Shown here piece by piece: positions 13,141 to 20,835 of a stretch of DNA of 64,000 nucleotides (position 1 is its first letter; each line of letters opens with the position of its first letter). Below the pieces are notes generated by a model that worked only from the letters and a program-made list of their open reading frames with translations, searched no databases and was not told the DNA's origin. Made by a program: the position numbers and the translations under genes. Source of the DNA: Mariprofundus sp. (lineage in GTDB: Bacteria; Pseudomonadota; Zetaproteobacteria; Mariprofundales; Mariprofundaceae); the NCBI GenBank assembly GCA_021772775.1, contig JAJFLH010000026.1:1-64000 (forward strand), read 5' to 3'.

Positions 13141-13545
13141 ATGAGCGAGCAGCCAGTAAAACATCAGCGCCCGACCTTGCCGCGCCCATTGTCTCCCCGA
13201 TTATCTATTTACCGCTGGCGTGCTCCTATGCTTGCCAGTATCGCGCACCGAGCCAGTGGTGTGGTGTTGATTCTATTTGTCCCTCTCTATCTATGGTTGT
13301 TGCACGGTATGACCGGCAGCCCTGACCATTACGCGGCCACTTTAGAGTGGTTACATTCGATGTCAGGAAAATTCTCCTTATGGCTTGTCGGTCTGGCGCT
13401 GGTATATCACTTCGCTAATGGTATTCGGTACCTCTGTTTGGATTCTGGCTGGGGTGAAAGCCGAGCAATGATGCGGTTTAATGCCAAGCTGGTGCTTGTT
13501 ATCGCCGGCGTTGCTGCGCTTGCGCTGTTCTGGATGTTGTCATGA
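13141..13545 (+). CDS. sdhC: Succinate dehydrogenase cytochrome b subunit
   Basis: The larger membrane anchor of complex II, which passes electrons from succinate to quinone. The 134-residue product has RPLSPRLSIYRW and SIAHRASGVVL, the quinone-site signature of SdhC, three membrane segments, and HFANGIRYLCLD, whose His (about residue 84 of the family) is the haem b ligand. A good AAGGGG ribosome-binding site precedes the ATG at 13141. It overlaps sdhD by four bases (ATGA), so the two anchors are made in equal amounts. Confidence 0.94.
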   Translation: MSEQPVKHQRPTLPRPLSPRLSIYRWRAPMLASIAHRASGVVLILFVPLYLWLLHGMTGSPDHYAATLEWLHSMSGKFSLWLVGLALVYHFANGIRYLCLDSGWGESRAMMRFNAKLVLVIAGVAALALFWMLS

Positions 13546-13901
13546 GAACCATTAAAGAGCCCGGTTCAGCCCATAGCGGCTTGTCTGATTGGTACTGGCA
13601 GCGCCTCTCTGCAGTAGTGCTGGCAGTGTTGTTGCCGCTGCCCTTCTTTCTGTTGGTGGCAGTCTATTCTGGCAGTGTTGATCAACAGGGGCTGTTGGAT
13701 GTGCTGGATCATGTTGCCTCCCGTGTACTGCATTCGGTATTGATTTTGGCTCTGATTATTCACGCTTATATTGGTTTGAAAGTTATATTGGAAGATTATG
13801 TGCATGTGCTCGGTTGGCGAATTCCATTGATCGGGACGATGTTGGTCATGATGAGCGGGTTTGGTATCTGGTGGTTGGCACTCATCTGGGCTTGGGCTTA
13901 A
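13542..13901 (+). CDS. sdhD: Succinate dehydrogenase membrane anchor
   Basis: The second membrane anchor of complex II, 119 residues with three membrane segments. GLSDWYWQRLSAVVLA is the typical SdhD start with its conserved Trp-Gln-Arg near the quinone site, and HAYIGLKVILEDYVH carries the conserved haem-region His and the Asp-Tyr pair. The ATG overlaps the sdhC stop codon. A 45-base gap with its own ribosome-binding site leads to sdhA. Confidence 0.93.
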   Translation: MRTIKEPGSAHSGLSDWYWQRLSAVVLAVLLPLPFFLLVAVYSGSVDQQGLLDVLDHVASRVLHSVLILALIIHAYIGLKVILEDYVHVLGWRIPLIGTMLVMMSGFGIWWLALIWAWA

Positions 13902-13946
13902 TCTGAATAGCTACCATATGTTGAATTTCTGGTTTAAGGAGCTGAT

Positions 13947-15761
13947 TTGACTTATTTGTCGACGGATAAGGTTGAAAATCATTTTCACGATGTGGTTATC
14001 ATCGGTTCTGGTGGAGCCGGTATGCGCTGTGCATTGGATCTGGCTGATGCCGGACACCGTGTGGCGATTGTTACCAAGGTGTTGCCGACGCGTTCGCATA
14101 CAGTGGCTGCTCAGGGCGGTATTAATGCCTCGCTGGGTAATGTGGATTCCGATCACTGGCATTGGCATATGTATGATACAGTGAAAGGTTCGGATTATCT
14201 TGGTGATCAGGATGCCATTGAGTATATGTGCAGGGCAGCCCCTCGTATTGTGCGCGAGCTGGAGCATCAGGGTGTGGCATTCTCACGATTGGAAGATGGC
14301 ACGATTTACCAGCGTCCATTTGGTGGTCAATCGCTCAAGTTTGGTGAAGGTGGTCAGGCATCACGCACTTGTGCGGCAGCAGATCGCACCGGTCACGCTA
14401 TCTTACATAGCCTCTATCAGCAAAACCTGCGGGCTGGTACGCATTTCTATCAAGAGTTTTTTGCCCTCGATCTGATTACCGATGAGAATGGTTGTCATGG
14501 TGTGATGGCGTGGGATATTGCCAATGGAACTTATCACCTGTTTCAGGCCAAGGCGGTGATTTTAGCGACGGGGGGTGCGGGGCGTGTGTTCAAGGTAACA
14601 ACCAATGCGCATATCTGTACCGGTGACGGTGGTGCACTTACACTTGCTGCCGGCCTGCCGATGGAAGATATGGAGTTTTTCCAGTTTCATCCGACTGGTA
14701 TTGCCGATGTTGGCCCCTTGATTTCAGAAGGTGTGCGTGGTGAAGGTGGTTATCTGTTGAATTCCGAAGGTGAACGTTTTATGGAGCGTTATGCGCCGAC
14801 AGCCAAAGATCTGGCCAGTCGCGATGTTGTTTCCCGTGCTATTGCTCTGGAGATACGGGAAGGGCGCGGTTGCGGGCCAAACAAAGATCATGCATTGCTG
14901 AAAGTTGATCATCTGGGTGAGCAGTTGATTTTAGAGCGCCTGCCAAATATTCACGAACTGGCGCTGCGTTTCGCTGGAGTGGATTGTACAAAAGAACCCA
15001 TCCCGGTGCAGCCGACTATGCATTACACCATGGGTGGCACGCCCACCAATCGACATACTGAAGTGGTTTATACAGATGGGGATAAGCAGGAGAAAGTGTT
15101 TCCCGGTCTTTTTGCTATTGGTGAAGGGGCTTGTGTGTCGGTGCACGGAGCCAACCGTCTGGGTGGTAACTCATTGCTGGAAATTGTGGTCTTCGGTCAT
15201 GCCTGTGGTGTGCGTGTGCAGGAGTATCTGGCGGCACAGCACTATCACGCACCGCTTGACCCCGATTGTTGGAAAACTGCAGTGCAACGTGTGGAGCGCT
15301 GGTTTGATTCGATTCAGACAGGTGATAAAGAGGGGACTAGAGCTACATCGCGGGTGGCCAATGTTCGAGCTCGCATGCAAACCATTATGCAGGATCATTT
15401 TAGTGTCTACCGTACTGAAGATGTGATGGCTGAAGGTGTAAAGGCTATCGAGGCGCTTGTCGGTGATTTAAGATCAGCTTGTATCGATGATGCTTGTCGT
15501 GTTTTTAATACGGATTTGGTGGAAGCGCTGGAGTTGGAAAACTTAATGGCGCTGGCGCGTGTGACGGCTGCTGGTGCACATGCCCGCACTGAATCCCGAG
15601 GCGCCCATGCCCGAGATGATTATCCTGAACGCGATGATGTGAACTGGCAAAAGCATACGCTGGCTTCGATCAAGGATGGTAAAGTAAAACTCGATTATAA
15701 AGCAGTGCGAACGATACCGATGACGGTGGACTCCTTTCCACCCAAAAAGAGGGTGTACTGA
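13947..15761 (+). CDS. sdhA: Succinate dehydrogenase flavoprotein subunit
   Basis: The catalytic subunit that oxidises succinate to fumarate with covalent FAD. The 604-residue product has [17 protein letters not shown] (FAD-binding), [16 protein letters not shown] with the His that carries the flavin, [21 protein letters not shown] with the active-site Arg and Glu, and [18 protein letters not shown]. The start is a TTG at 13947, five bases after AAGGAG; there is no ATG before the FAD motif. The C-terminal part has [16 protein letters not shown], as expected. Its stop overlaps the sdhB start by one base. Confidence 0.97.
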
Positions 15762-16471
15762 TGGCAGAGATGATCAAACTCTCTATTTTTCGTCACGATC
15801 CTGATGGTGATGGCAAACCGTTCATGCAGGCATTTGAAGTGCCGCTGTTGCAGCCGGGTATGAAATTGCTCGATGCCCTGAACTACATCAAATGGGAGCT
15901 GGATGGCACGCTGACCTATCGTCGTTCGTGTGGGGAAGGTGTGTGTGGCTCCGATGGTCTGAATATCAATGGCGTGAACGGTTTGGCATGTATTACGCCG
16001 ATAGAGGGGTTGAAGCAGCCGATTCATGTGCGACCGTTGCCATCGATGCAGGTGATTCGTGATCTGGTGGTGGATATGGATCATTTTTTTGATCAGTACC
16101 GTCAGGTCAAACCCTGGTTGCAGTCCGATTCACCACTGCCTGAGCATGAGCGTCTGCAGTCGCCTGAAGATCGCGAACGCTTGAATGGTTCATATGAGTG
16201 TATCCTGTGTGCTTGTTGTACTACCGCTTGTCCATCGTGGTGGTGGAATGGCGATCGCTTTCTTGGCCCGGCTGCGTTGTTGCAGGCCAATCGCTGGATT
16301 GTTGATTCGCGTGATGAAGCGACAGGAGATCGATTGGATCAGGTTGAAGATGCGTTCAGGCTGTATCGTTGCCATCAGATTATGAATTGTATGGATGCCT
16401 GCCCGAAAGAGCTTAACCCCACCGCTGCGATTGGCCATATCAAACGTAAACTGGTATCGCGCAAGTCATAA
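15761..16471 (+). CDS. sdhB: Succinate dehydrogenase iron-sulphur subunit
   Basis: This subunit carries electrons from FAD to quinone through three clusters. All ligand sets are visible in 236 residues: SCGEGVCGSDGLNINGVNGL for the [2Fe-2S] cluster, CILCACCTTACP for the [4Fe-4S] cluster, and CHQIMNCMDACPKELNP for the [3Fe-4S] cluster. The second position of the 2Fe-2S motif is GVCGSD, as in bacterial SdhB. The ATG at 15761 overlaps the sdhA stop codon. sdhE begins two bases after the stop. Confidence 0.97.
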   Translation: MAEMIKLSIFRHDPDGDGKPFMQAFEVPLLQPGMKLLDALNYIKWELDGTLTYRRSCGEGVCGSDGLNINGVNGLACITPIEGLKQPIHVRPLPSMQVIRDLVVDMDHFFDQYRQVKPWLQSDSPLPEHERLQSPEDRERLNGSYECILCACCTTACPSWWWNGDRFLGPAALLQANRWIVDSRDEATGDRLDQVEDAFRLYRCHQIMNCMDACPKELNPTAAIGHIKRKLVSRKS

Positions 16472-16472
16472 A

Positions 16473-16703
16473 ATGCATGAATCTGAAATTGCTGTGCGTC
16501 GTTTACGCTACCGTTTGAATCGTCAGGGTATGTTGGAGCTGGATGCGTGGTTAAGCCCTCTGTTGCAGGCTGATTTTAAAGTTGATGGCGTTATGGATGC
16601 GATGGATCTGCTGTTAGGATGTGAACCACCTGAATTACAGGCTATGATGCACGGCGAAAAAGATGTGCCGGAGTGTTTGAAGATATGGTTATCCGACAAA
16701 TAA
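16473..16703 (+). CDS. sdhE: FAD assembly factor SdhE
   Basis: SdhE helps attach FAD to SdhA. The 76-residue product fits the family (about 80-90 residues): RRLRYRLNRQGMLELDAWLS corresponds to the RxRGxxELDxxL signature, although the usual RRG is spelled NRQG here. It ends with LLGCEPPELQ and a hydrophobic Trp segment (CLKIWLSDK). The ATG at 16473 is chosen because conservation starts there and it directly follows the sdhB stop. Placement after sdhCDAB supports the call. Its end overlaps the next gene by 19 bases. Confidence 0.85.
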   Translation: MHESEIAVRRLRYRLNRQGMLELDAWLSPLLQADFKVDGVMDAMDLLLGCEPPELQAMMHGEKDVPECLKIWLSDK

Positions 16704-17431
16704 ATATTAAAATTGTATTGCTCACAATCGTGCTGATGTTGCTTTCGTCCTGTTCGGCGCTGCAGTCCACTGCACCTGTAAAACCTGTTGAAGTCAGCTC
16801 GATGCTGGTCTTTGAACCGGATCGTGTTGATATGGGGATAGTGAAAGAGGGTGAGGATGCCATCGTGTTCTTGCGGGTGCGCAATGCAGGTGATGTGATG
16901 GCAACTATAGCGACGGTGGAAACCTCCTGCGGTTGCAGTGTGGCGGAGCCTGAACAGAGTTTGTTGATGCCGGGGGCTTTTACACGCATCAAAGTGGTAG
17001 TGGATACATTTGCCAAGCAGGGCGATGCTAAAAAGTGGGTGCAGCTGACCGATGATCTGGGCCATCATAACAGAGCATGGTTGAACCTTAAGGTGGTAGA
17101 AAACCCTCATTTGCAGAGTTCGGCTCGTAGCATTTTCCAGGGTAAATGTGCTGCCTGCCATTTTGATGCAGCCAAAGGGCGAAGCAAAGGCCCTGAGATA
17201 TATACGGCCGTTTGCGGTATGTGTCATGGAGACAAGGGGCAGGGGGCAGCGGCTCCTTCACTGCAGCAGCATCATGATGCTGATATTCTGGCTGCTGTGA
17301 TTGCCAATGGCACTGGTACGCATCACATGCCTGGTTTTGCATTGAATCAGGGTGGTCCATTGACTGATCAGCAAATAACTGAGCTGAGTAAATGGTTATC
17401 TACACTGGACGAAACGGGTCAAAAACGTTAG
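16685..17431 (+). CDS. DUF1573-like plus cytochrome c lipoprotein
   Basis: A 248-residue exported lipoprotein: a hydrophobic signal segment is followed by the lipobox LLSSC. Residues about 35-145 form an immunoglobulin-like DUF1573 domain (FEPDRVDMGIVKEGEDAIVF, then VRNAGDVMATIATVETSCGC), known from periplasmic proteins and often next to cytochromes. The C-terminal 100 residues are a cytochrome c domain with two haem motifs close together, CAACH (155-159) and CGMCH (177-181), and a likely Met ligand in HHMPGF. The ATG at 16685 lies inside sdhE, which ties the gene to the sdh operon; a GTG at 16673 is a less likely start. The role is unknown; periplasmic electron transfer is inferred. Confidence 0.75.
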   Translation: MVIRQINIKIVLLTIVLMLLSSCSALQSTAPVKPVEVSSMLVFEPDRVDMGIVKEGEDAIVFLRVRNAGDVMATIATVETSCGCSVAEPEQSLLMPGAFTRIKVVVDTFAKQGDAKKWVQLTDDLGHHNRAWLNLKVVENPHLQSSARSIFQGKCAACHFDAAKGRSKGPEIYTAVCGMCHGDKGQGAAAPSLQQHHDADILAAVIANGTGTHHMPGFALNQGGPLTDQQITELSKWLSTLDETGQKR

Positions 17432-17461: not shown

Positions 17462-18133
17462 ATGAAAAAAGATACAGTTATTGCACCATCCATTTTATCG
17501 GCCGATTTTGCCCGTTTGGGTGAAGAGATTAAGGCCATTGATGACGGTGGTTGTGATTGGGTTCATTTTGATGTGATGGATGGTTCATTCGTTCCTCCTA
17601 TCACTATTGGCGACAACATCTGCAAAGCTATTCGTTCTTATACCGACAAAACTATTGATGTGCATTTGATGGTGAATCATCCGGATACGCAGGTTGAAGC
17701 ATTTGCTAAAGCTGGTGCTAATATTATTACTGTGCATCAGGAAGCATGTATACACCTTGAGCGTACACTGCAGTTAATCCGTTCATACGGTGTTAAAGCG
17801 GGCGTGAGTCTAAATCCTGGTACACCTGTCTCTACCATTAAAAATGTGTTGCATTGCACTGACCTGGTATTGCTGATGAGTGTGAATCCCGGTTATGGCG
17901 GACAGTCATACATTCATGCTGTGACGGATAAGATTCGTGAAGCGCGTCAGATGTTAGATGATGCAGGTTCTGATGCATGGTTGGAAGTTGATGGCGGCGT
18001 AAACATCAAGACTGTTGAAGAAGTAGCTGCAGCCGGTGCTGATGCACTGGTAGCTGGATCTGCTGTCTATGGTGCAGATGATTATGCTAAGGCAATTAAA
18101 GATATCAGAGACCTTGCTAATAACGCATCATAA
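17462..18133 (+). CDS. rpe: Ribulose-phosphate 3-epimerase
   Basis: Rpe interconverts ribulose 5-phosphate and xylulose 5-phosphate in the pentose phosphate and Calvin cycles. The 223-residue TIM barrel has IAPSILSADFARLGEEI, then HFDVMDGSFVPPITIG with metal and catalytic residues, DVHLMV, NPGTP, MSVNPGYGGQ, LEVDGGVN and the phosphate-binding GADALVAGSAVYG. The ATG at 17462 follows AAGGGAG. It lies between the sdh block and petABC with gaps of about 30 and 118 bases. Confidence 0.96.
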   Translation: MKKDTVIAPSILSADFARLGEEIKAIDDGGCDWVHFDVMDGSFVPPITIGDNICKAIRSYTDKTIDVHLMVNHPDTQVEAFAKAGANIITVHQEACIHLERTLQLIRSYGVKAGVSLNPGTPVSTIKNVLHCTDLVLLMSVNPGYGGQSYIHAVTDKIREARQMLDDAGSDAWLEVDGGVNIKTVEEVAAAGADALVAGSAVYGADDYAKAIKDIRDLANNAS

Positions 18134-18251: not shown

Positions 18252-18851
18252 ATGACAGATCAAGCAAATCAGTCGCGCCGTAACTTTCTTTACGTTGCAG
18301 CGGGTGGTTTAGGAGCTGTTGCTGCAGGTGCTACTGTTGTACCGTTTATAGGCAGTATGTTGCCAGCAGCGGATACTTTGGCGGCATCAAAAACGGAATT
18401 CAACGTATCAACTGTTGAAGCGGGGCAACTGGTAACAATTCAGTGGCAGGGTAAACCGGTTTTTGTCTTAAATCGCACAGCTGAGCTTCTAAAACAAGTC
18501 GATGGACATGACGATATCCTTAAAGATGCTGAATCAAAGGCTATTGATGAAGTACAGGCCGAATGGATGGATACACCGGAAAAACGCAAGTTCCGTTCTA
18601 TTAAACCGGAATATTTGATCGTTGTTGCGAGTTGTACACATCTGGGTTGTATTCCTCTGTTTAAACCAACGCCTGGTCGTAAAGACTGGGGTAACTCTGT
18701 TCCTGAAGATTGGTATGGTGGATGGCATTGTCCATGTCATGGTTCTCTGTACGATCTTTCTGCACGTGTTGCAAAGGGTTCACCTGCACCAACAAATCTT
18801 CATGTTATGAAATATGAATATAAATCCGACACTACTGTAGTGATCGGCTAA
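18252..18851 (+). CDS. petA: Cytochrome bc1 Rieske iron-sulphur subunit
   Basis: The Rieske subunit of the quinol:cytochrome c oxidoreductase. The 199-residue product starts with a Tat-type signal/anchor: SRRNFLYVAAGG followed by a long hydrophobic stretch. The [2Fe-2S] ligands are in CTHLGC (about residues 126-131) and CPCHGS (about 159-164). The spacer between them is typical, with GGWHCPCHGSLYDLSARVAK. A GAGGGGGG ribosome-binding site precedes the ATG. petB follows after 19 bases with its own strong ribosome-binding site. Confidence 0.96.
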   Translation: MTDQANQSRRNFLYVAAGGLGAVAAGATVVPFIGSMLPAADTLAASKTEFNVSTVEAGQLVTIQWQGKPVFVLNRTAELLKQVDGHDDILKDAESKAIDEVQAEWMDTPEKRKFRSIKPEYLIVVASCTHLGCIPLFKPTPGRKDWGNSVPEDWYGGWHCPCHGSLYDLSARVAKGSPAPTNLHVMKYEYKSDTTVVIG

Positions 18852-18870
18852 TCCAGGGGGAGGCAATAAA

Positions 18871-20088
18871 GTGATAGAAAAAATGATGAAAACACAACTG
18901 TTCGCCTGGGTTGACAGACGTACAGGTGCAGAGGCGATCATTAAGTCGCAGCTGACTGAATATCCGGCACCAAAGAACCTGAACTATATGTGGAACTTTG
19001 GTTCATTGGCTCTGCTGATGCTGGTACTACAAATTGTCACCGGTATTTTCCTGGTGATGTATTATAAACCATCAGCTGAAGCTACCTTTGGTGGTTTTAC
19101 TGTCGCCTTTGATTCAGTAGAGCGCATTATGCGAGATGTGAATTTTGGCTGGTTGATCCGTTACATGCATGCCGTTGGTGCATCCATGTTCTTCCTTGTG
19201 GTCTATTTGCATATGGGGCGTGGTTTTTACTACGGTTCATTCAAAGAGCCACGTGAGTTGTTGTGGATTATCGGTGTTGTGATTCTGCTGATTATGCAGG
19301 GTGCTGCATTCTTCGGTTATCTACTACCATGGGGGCAGATGTCTTTCTGGGGTGCAACCGTTATTACCAATCTGTTTGGCGCTATTCCGGTCTTGGGTGA
19401 GTATGTCACACAAATCCTGGTTGGTGGTTTTGCAATTGGTGATCCAACCTTGAATCGCTTCTTCTCACTGCATTATCTGTTCCCATTGTTGCTGGTAGCT
19501 ATTGTTGGCGGTCATGTACATGCTCTGCATGTTGTGCATTCCAATAATCCAGAGGGTATTGATCTGCATAAACCAGAACAGATGATTCCATTCCATCCGT
19601 ACTATACGATTAAAGATGCATTCGGCGTAGCGTTCTTCTTAACGATTTATGCTTACATCGTATTCTTTAATCCACAGTTCGCTGGTTACTTCATTGAAGT
19701 GGATAACTATGTACCTGCGAATAACCTCTCTACACCTGCTCATATTGCACCGGTGTGGTACTTAACACCTTGGTACACCATCTTACGTTCGTTTGAATCG
19801 AAACTGATTGGTGTATTAGCAATGGGTGGTTCTTTGGCTATCCTGTTCTTACTGCCATTCCTGTGCCGTTCAGCAGTACGTTCAGCTCGCTACCGTCCTG
19901 TCTACAGAATCATGGTGATCATGTTCTTCGTAGATGTTATTGTACTGGGTTATTGTGGTCATTCCGCACCAACACCAACGCTTAAAATAGTGGGTCAGCT
20001 CTCAACTGCTTACTACTTCCTGTTCTTCGCGGCTCTGCCATTCTTACCGAAGTTCGAGAAGACTAAGCCAGTGCCGGAGGGGATTTGA
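18871..20088 (+). CDS. petB: Cytochrome bc1 cytochrome b subunit
   Basis: The membrane core of complex III; it holds haems bL and bH and both quinone sites. The 405-residue product has eight or more membrane segments and the haem-ligand His pairs: RYMHAVGASMFFLVVYLHMG in the second helix and GGHVHALHVVH in the fourth. It also has GYLLPWGQMSFWGATVITNL and, near the Qo site, PAHIAPVWYLTPWY, which holds a PVWY variant of the usual PEWY. It starts at GTG 18871 after GGGGGAGG. petC starts two bases after its stop. Confidence 0.96.
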   Translation: MIEKMMKTQLFAWVDRRTGAEAIIKSQLTEYPAPKNLNYMWNFGSLALLMLVLQIVTGIFLVMYYKPSAEATFGGFTVAFDSVERIMRDVNFGWLIRYMHAVGASMFFLVVYLHMGRGFYYGSFKEPRELLWIIGVVILLIMQGAAFFGYLLPWGQMSFWGATVITNLFGAIPVLGEYVTQILVGGFAIGDPTLNRFFSLHYLFPLLLVAIVGGHVHALHVVHSNNPEGIDLHKPEQMIPFHPYYTIKDAFGVAFFLTIYAYIVFFNPQFAGYFIEVDNYVPANNLSTPAHIAPVWYLTPWYTILRSFESKLIGVLAMGGSLAILFLLPFLCRSAVRSARYRPVYRIMVIMFFVDVIVLGYCGHSAPTPTLKIVGQLSTAYYFLFFAALPFLPKFEKTKPVPEGI

Positions 20089-20089
20089 T

Positions 20090-20782
20090 ATGAAAACCAC
20101 TAACACATTGATGGCAATACTTGCCATAGCTGTGATGGGCTTTTCAACATCTGCAATGGCCAGTGGAGGCGGTGCTGCTCTCAAGCATGCTGAGATTGAC
20201 GTTACAAACCAGGAACAACTGCGTCGTGGTTTGACCGTATTTGTCGATGTTTGTATGGGCTGTCACTCAGCTAAATACATGACCTATCGTGGTTTGATGG
20301 CTTATCCTGAGCTTGCTCTGACACGTGAAGAAGTGGACGATCTGCGAGGCGATAAGTCTTTGATGAGCGGTATGATCTCTGATATGTCGCCTGAAGATGC
20401 AACTGAATCGTATGGTAAGTCTCCACCAGATCTGTCACTCATCGTGCCGGGTCGTCGTGGTGGCGCAGATTACATCTATTCACTTATGGTTGGCTTTGAG
20501 CATGATCCAGATGGCAAGATCCCAGATGGTAACTACAACCCTTTTTACCCTGGTGGTCGTATTGCTATGCCGGATCCACTGTCATGGCTTGATCATGATG
20601 CAGCAGATACTGCAGAGCTGGAGCAGCAGGCTCATGATGTTTCTGCATTTTTGGCATTCATCGGTGATCCCCATCAGAACGAACGTCGGGCTATCGGTTG
20701 CTGGGTAGTTGGATTCCTGGTCCTACTTACTCTGGTGCTGTGGCGCTTGAAAGTAGAAGTCTGGAAAGATGTAAAACATTGA
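20090..20782 (+). CDS. petC: Cytochrome bc1 cytochrome c1 subunit
   Basis: The membrane-anchored c-type cytochrome that passes electrons from the Rieske protein to soluble cytochrome c. The 230-residue product has a Sec signal peptide (cleavage near AMASG), the haem motif CMGCH in VCMGCHSAKYMTYRGLM, the conserved PPDLSLI segment, a Met ligand region around GGRIAMPDPLS, and one C-terminal membrane anchor (IGCWVVGFLVLLTLVLWRL). It is the last gene of petABC and is followed by a strong terminator. Confidence 0.95.
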   Translation: MKTTNTLMAILAIAVMGFSTSAMASGGGAALKHAEIDVTNQEQLRRGLTVFVDVCMGCHSAKYMTYRGLMAYPELALTREEVDDLRGDKSLMSGMISDMSPEDATESYGKSPPDLSLIVPGRRGGADYIYSLMVGFEHDPDGKIPDGNYNPFYPGGRIAMPDPLSWLDHDAADTAELEQQAHDVSAFLAFIGDPHQNERRAIGCWVVGFLVLLTLVLWRLKVEVWKDVKH

Positions 20783-20803: not shown

Positions 20804-20835
20804 AAAAGGCTCGCCATATGGCGAGCCTTTTTTTG
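20804..20835 (+). terminator. Rho-independent terminator of petABC
   Basis: A perfect hairpin, AGGCTCGCC-ATAT-GGCGAGCCT, starts 20 bases after petC and is followed by seven or more T residues. An A run precedes it, so it may also work on the other strand. Confidence 0.93.

Follow-up and report, generated by a model that had tools for sequence, protein, structure and literature searches.

A DUF1573 domain joined to a cytochrome c with two closely spaced haem motifs recurs in distant bacterial phyla, and the Mariprofundus sp. protein encoded in the window (the whole 64,000-nucleotide stretch of DNA that was analysed) appears to carry a compact di-haem module. We consider it fairly probable that this protein is a periplasmic, lipid-anchored electron-transfer protein in which two haems accompany a redox-competent Cys-Gly-Cys (CGC) site in DUF1573. 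It would relay electrons in the envelope, possibly as a thiol/selenol-haem oxidoreductase. Because the same design recurs in distant phyla, with selenocysteine apparently substituting in a few cases, it is probably a real redox protein, so far uncharacterised.

The gene belongs to a single same-strand run comprising sdhCDAB, sdhE, the cytochrome gene, rpe, and the bc1 genes:

13141..16471, plus strand: sdhC, sdhD, sdhA, and sdhB (Pfam)
16473..16703, plus strand: sdhE, overlapping the cytochrome start (Pfam Sdh5, E 7.4e-8)
16685..17431, plus strand: gene for the DUF1573/putative di-haem cytochrome c lipoprotein, 248 amino acids plus stop; alternative GTG start at 16673
16742..16753, plus strand: lipobox L-S-S-C, with Cys23 (sequence)
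16808..17056, plus strand: DUF1573 domain (Ig/ASH/PapD-like), residues 42-124 (Pfam; Foldseek)
16928..16936, plus strand: Cys-Gly-Cys of DUF1573, residues 82-84; three relatives have an in-frame TGA for the first Cys
17108..17110, plus strand: His142, candidate distal ligand of haem 1 (alignment)
17147..17161, plus strand: first haem motif CAACH, residues 155-159, outside the matched class I fold (sequence)
17186..17407, plus strand: class I cytochrome c domain, residues 168-241 (Pfam; VIA-align)
17213..17227, plus strand: second haem motif CGMCH, residues 177-181 (sequence)
17327..17329, plus strand: Met215, expected distal ligand of haem 2 (alignment; role from the class I fold)
17462..18133, plus strand: rpe, ribulose-phosphate 3-epimerase (Pfam)
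18252..20782, plus strand: bc1 complex genes for the Rieske protein, cytochrome b, and cytochrome c1 (Pfam)
20804..20831, plus strand: intrinsic-terminator-like hairpin about 20 bases after the cytochrome c1 gene, with a 12-pair stem and T tail

The product of 16685-17431 begins MVIRQINIKIVLLTIVLMLLSSCSAL... The first-pass annotation had placed the gene start inside sdhE, and had described two CxxCH motifs 22 residues apart with a single Met region; the translation bears out both points. The cytochrome ATG, at 16685, lies 19 bases ahead of the end of sdhE, so that the reading frames overlap by 19 bases; the motifs are separated by 22 residues, Cys to Cys; and a single HMPGF occupies residues 214-218. 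Pfam recognises DUF1573 at residues 42-124 (E 1.5e-12; 47.8 bits, cut-off 26.1) and Cytochrome_CBB3 at residues 168-238 (E 1.6e-10; 41.6 bits, cut-off 27). The latter model starts at residue 168 and therefore covers the second haem motif only. A simple regular expression found a lipobox-like string in 24 of 34 homologues.

Structure prediction places the first motif outside the class I fold. For the full-protein AF2 model (pLDDT 90.9, pTM 0.74), the listed Foldseek matches fall on the DUF1573 part, led by 2qsv, and are PapD/MSP/ASH-like (HYDIN/CEP192/MSP) domains; the cytochrome part was therefore modelled separately (pLDDT 86.7, pTM 0.79). Among the VIA-align matches listed for this domain, 50 solved class I cytochromes align from domain residue 30, 33, or 34 (best 6rte: Z 9.8, rmsd 2.2 over 74 residues); beginning no earlier than residue 30, they barely cover the N-terminal extension. 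The first motif occupies domain residues 21-25, on a separate short helix ahead of the class I fold. Only the second motif shows the features of a class I cytochrome c: a CxxCH on the N-terminal helix, the Met ligand position, and the fold itself. A sequence search of solved structures returned none at E <= 0.001 (best 0.0096). Multihaem c3/c7-type models stayed below their Pfam cut-offs (Cytochrome_C7, 15.5 against 24.8; Cytochrom_c3_2, 15.9 against 25), and weak Cytochrom_c3_2 matches were seen in 5 of 23 diverse members.

Both haem motifs are conserved throughout the family. All of 130 loci yielded a protein, giving 76 distinct homologues; to be extracted, a protein had to show one CxxCH preceded by [Cys or stop]-[Gly/Ser]-Cys, together with a Met motif, a second CxxCH being optional. 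All 76 contain both motifs, and in the alignment the Cys, Cys, and His of each motif, as well as Met215, are each found in 76 of 76. Homologues lacking one motif, named by the first-pass annotation as the sign that it is incidental, were looked for and none appeared among the 76; the family profile, for which two-motif proteins served as input, would still find a relative that had lost one motif, and four of the phylum searches were made at E <= 1e-30, a threshold that distant single-motif DUF1573 cytochromes could escape. The idea of a chance or incidental first motif is accordingly rejected, none of the 76 being without it. The motifs are 22 residues apart in all 49 Zetaproteobacterial proteins and 21 apart in all 27 from other groups, and the tree separates these same sets by a branch with 100/100 support. 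This split is what the gain or loss of one residue would produce.

A conserved His precedes the first motif. A His aligned with His142, 13 residues before that motif, is present in 68 of the 76 homologues, and no further non-motif His reaches 85% conservation; other positions at or above that level include Asn67 and Lys117 (both 76 of 76). Among the Zetaproteobacteria, a His stands 12-15 residues before the first motif in 49 of 49, and exactly 13 before it in 41. The 27 members from other phyla have it at 12-15 in 16 cases and only at 16-26 in 10; the remaining member, L034, has no His within 30 residues ahead of the motif. In L130 the only candidates lie 19, 26, and 1 residues before the first motif, and in L131 they lie at 19 and 26; both have Met at 13. 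(L130 and L131 are two related copies in one genome, G405.)

Invariance of the motifs together with this upstream His makes a compact two-haem module the simplest account. The first-pass reading of a compact di-haem protein is thus supported by comparative evidence: none of the 76 homologues lacks a motif, the extra motif falls outside the class I fold, and the upstream His is present in 68. Both motifs presumably carry haem, with His142 the likely distal ligand of haem 1 and Met215, by analogy with the class I fold, the expected distal ligand of haem 2.

The haem-motif pair travels with DUF1573. A scan of named genomes queried with the cytochrome part alone yielded 58 loci; 48 of them have the motif pair and the other 10 lack it. 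A DUF1573 profile built from the family matches 48 of the 48 loci with the pair, none of the 10 without, and all 76 distinct homologues; its weakest match is L081, whose frame as taken begins after a TGA. Pfam DUF1573 (PF07610) matches 23 of 23 diverse members at E <= 0.01. A search for the same fusion, as the first-pass annotation had advised, found DUF1573 with the haem-motif pair in several phyla. Within DUF1573, the site reads CGC in 72 of the 76 homologues, TGA-GC in three, and CSC in one; its three positions are conserved in 76, 75, and 76 of 76 when the three TGA codons are counted as Cys. This constant company of DUF1573 and its CGC/UGC site suggests redox work there that is coupled to the haems. 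One homologue (L077:6789-8342), in a 518-residue frame, has a longer front part, where another CGC stands near residue 84.

The three exceptions with TGA suggest that selenocysteine replaces the first Cys of CGC. The in-frame TGA falls exactly at this Cys in L129 (position 1483; the same gene as L081), L147 (reverse strand), and L148 (position 1690), and these members belong to three clades of the tree: the sister of L147 is the Cys-bearing L146; that of L148 is the CSC-bearing L149; and L129, whose branch is long, clusters with L075 and related members. The selenocysteine reading draws on this position, its recurrence, and selB, which scores over its cut-off in both the L147 and the L148 genome. 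Since selB exceeds the cut-off in 8 of the 20 genomes searched, 6 of them with Cys forms only, it permits selenocysteine rather than proving it. In the genome of L129 (G404), selB falls below cut-off (143.6 of 242 bits), selA gave no match, and tRNA-Sec scored 43.4 bits, under the required 47. SECIS-like hairpins after the TGA are not stronger than those in Cys homologues (the three rank 9, 40, and 57 of 76), and a separate hairpin test gave z -0.34. Presumably, the L129 loop resembles that of the Escherichia coli fdhF SECIS. L138, a DUF1573 protein of genome G410 with no CxxCH downstream, likewise carries TGA in place of this Cys. Both homologues of the selenocysteine type found in the phylum of G398 lie near an O-antigen-ligase (Wzy_C) gene (L157:2258-4162 and L158:5183-7198).

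The fusion is widespread in the order of the window's genome. An initial search matched 34 of 61 genomes, including the window's own; the nearest named relative is Mariprofundus sp. EBB-1, with 73% identity in the cytochrome part. With the family profile (E <= 1e-10), 73 of 398 Pseudomonadota genomes match: 68 of the 78 from this order, and five others. For one of the 68 (G027) the match is confined to the cytochrome part, so that 67 of 78 have the full protein, a count that includes a partial match at a contig end (G275); among the 11 without it, some genomes are near complete (G023, 99%). Of the five outside the order, four match just in the cytochrome part, and G041 is the sole one with the full protein. 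Elsewhere, with each centre genome counted, the full protein occurs in 7 of 297, 5 of 296, 4 of 294, and 1 of 52 genomes from the phyla of G398, G401, G402, and G405, respectively, and in 4 of 9 from that of G399, in which a further three genomes match through DUF1573 alone. Among the named members are Acidobacteria (L074, L076) and Elusimicrobia (L078, L080), as well as one bacterium of the Bacteroidetes (L077). Outside the Zetaproteobacteria, then, the full protein is rare and patchy. A plasmid search gave no match to it.

The gene neighbourhood in Zetaproteobacteria is also conserved. Gene order was surveyed at 40 named loci under a strict adjacency rule: sdhE lies directly upstream in 35 of 38 judged and sdhB is found in 26 of 34; rpe is next downstream in 35 of 40; and petA of the bc1 complex follows rpe in 27 of 36 judged. 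At L071, rpe overlaps the cytochrome stop and so went uncounted. Under a looser search, L064 and L071 also show a stretch resembling sdhE upstream, leaving L059 as the only clear sdhE exception. In the window, the hairpin at 20804-20831 closes a possible transcription unit from sdhC to the cytochrome c1 gene, though the terminator scan overall gave 6 sites, fewer than the mean of 8.1 in shuffled sequence.

Outside this class the neighbourhood is different. At 24 loci, tblastn with the window's own proteins, a method that could overlook a divergent sdhE, found no sdhB, sdhC, sdhD, sdhE, rpe, or bc1 gene; the sole match is a distant sdhA-like sequence (L171, 28% identity). Neighbours there are inconsistent, with no common neighbourhood among 20 neighbouring proteins from 14 of 20 loci. 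The suggestion that the cytochrome is made with succinate dehydrogenase, and the link to sdh genes proposed along with it, stand within Zetaproteobacteria so far as sdhE precedes the gene in most loci; rpe and often bc1 genes follow it, and at the 24 loci outside the class the link all but disappears. That marks the sdh link as a lineage-specific gene order and not a defining partnership, and on the tblastn results from these 24 loci a general partnership with succinate dehydrogenase is rejected beyond the Zetaproteobacteria. In the phylum of G401, homologues adjoin genes for 2-oxoacid dehydrogenase E1/E2 or fumarase (L077:8362-9726, L165:1486-3708, L168:3051-8045); these central-carbon enzyme neighbours may be coincidence.

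Other readings have to be weighed against a redox-active DUF1573 coupled to two haems. One that could well hold, though we are inclined to doubt it, is a plain di-haem shuttle, in which DUF1573 has only a structural task, as a spacer or as an Ig fold for docking, and CGC is either a remnant or a disulfide that stabilises the structure. DUF1573 does resemble PapD/MSP/ASH adaptor folds in the Foldseek comparison, the Zetaproteobacterial gene precedes rpe and often the bc1 genes, and the available text of PMC7029218 describes many putative periplasmic cytochromes in this class. However, an apparent Cys/Sec exchange at one exact position in three clades fits a purely structural role poorly, as does the near-constancy of the site (only three TGA-GC and one CSC beside CGC). 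A different use for the site is metal or sulfur-compound handling, in which CGC/UGC would bind a soft metal or sulfane sulfur while the haems give or take electrons. CxC and UxC sites suit such ligands, but genes for these functions do not recur among the 20 neighbouring proteins scanned, where the lone suggestive neighbour is a ThiF-rhodanese protein beside L169; this reading seems unlikely.

It is slightly more unlikely that the protein holds one haem only, with the first CxxCH a thiol or metal site. The class I fold indeed holds one haem and aligns with the second motif alone, yet the Cys, Cys, and His of the first motif are as invariant as those of the second, a His precedes them in most members, and a thiol or metal site has no need of the exact CxxCH pattern that cytochrome c maturation recognises. 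Least probable of all is a partnership with succinate dehydrogenase or with the enzyme's flavinylation. The sdhE gene immediately upstream, with overlapping frames in the window, and the three loci outside the class that adjoin other central-carbon enzymes could be taken to favour it; but the cytochrome protein has an export signal whereas SdhE acts in the cytoplasm, the loci outside the class offer one distant sdh-like match, and L054 and L068 keep sdhE, the cytochrome gene, and rpe together with sdhCDAB kilobases away.

A lipid-anchored electron-transfer protein with two haems and a redox-competent CGC might work as follows. Haem 2 would be an ordinary class I cytochrome c haem, liganded by His181 and Met215. 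Haem 1 would be held by the first CxxCH on the short N-terminal extension, with His142 distal; as a bis-His haem, it would probably have the lower potential. The two would make a two-step wire within about 110 residues, and DUF1573 would supply a redox-competent Cys-Gly-Cys, for which some relatives appear to have selenocysteine-Gly-Cys. The most likely route for electrons would link a thiol/disulfide or partner protein at DUF1573 with the periplasmic cytochrome pool by way of haem 1 and haem 2. We infer the direction of electron flow, the chemistry at CGC, and the closeness of CGC to haem 1. To judge by the gene's position next to those of bc1, the protein may in iron oxidisers serve the chain at its quinol or reverse-electron-flow end. 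More tentatively, and with some doubt, members across phyla may be thiol/selenol-haem oxidoreductases, in which a catalytic CGC or Sec-Gly-Cys would exchange electrons directly with the bis-His haem and, through the His/Met haem, feed the respiratory chain.

According to the available text of PMC7029218, several of the proteins proposed to carry electrons in the periplasm of marine iron oxidisers are still candidates; the present protein, kept in 67 of the 78 genomes of its order, adds another. Moreover, DUF1573 is a domain of unknown function, and its joining to a di-haem cytochrome across phyla, together with the apparent Sec/Cys exchange, suggests a redox role, which is open to test on a protein of 248 residues. 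If true, the oxidoreductase reading would provide the first biochemical function for DUF1573.

Proteins of the DUF1573/OS_HP2 group (PF07610, NF041425) share the fold, the CGC motif, and selenocysteine forms with UxC/UGC, the last already published to judge from the available text of PMC2398784, PMC9312934, and PMC13188914. The window protein scores 34.3 bits against NF041425 (OS_HP2), below its cut-off of 100, and differs in that its DUF1573 is joined to a di-haem cytochrome. For this fusion, no described counterpart or function was found in the literature searched, from which subscription journals are mostly absent. Nor does the protein belong to a succinate dehydrogenase-associated family, the sdh linkage being confined to Zetaproteobacteria.

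Cyc1, which we take to be a cytochrome c4-type protein with two class I domains, is set apart by that description. The window protein has one class I fold, with motifs 22 residues apart, and Pfam finds a single class I stretch rather than the two complete domains presumed for di-haem proteins of the c4/Cyc1 type. Like Cyc1 of the iron-oxidation pathway, as presented in the available text of PMC7029218, it would be a periplasmic protein of Zetaproteobacteria with two haems.

Closest in its carboxyl-terminal part are the class I cytochromes (Cytochrome_CBB3/Cytochrom_C, including c6, c553, and NirS/NirN domains), which share the second CxxCH, the Met ligand position, and the fold. To these the window protein adds, in front, a CxxCH-bearing N-terminal extension and DUF1573.
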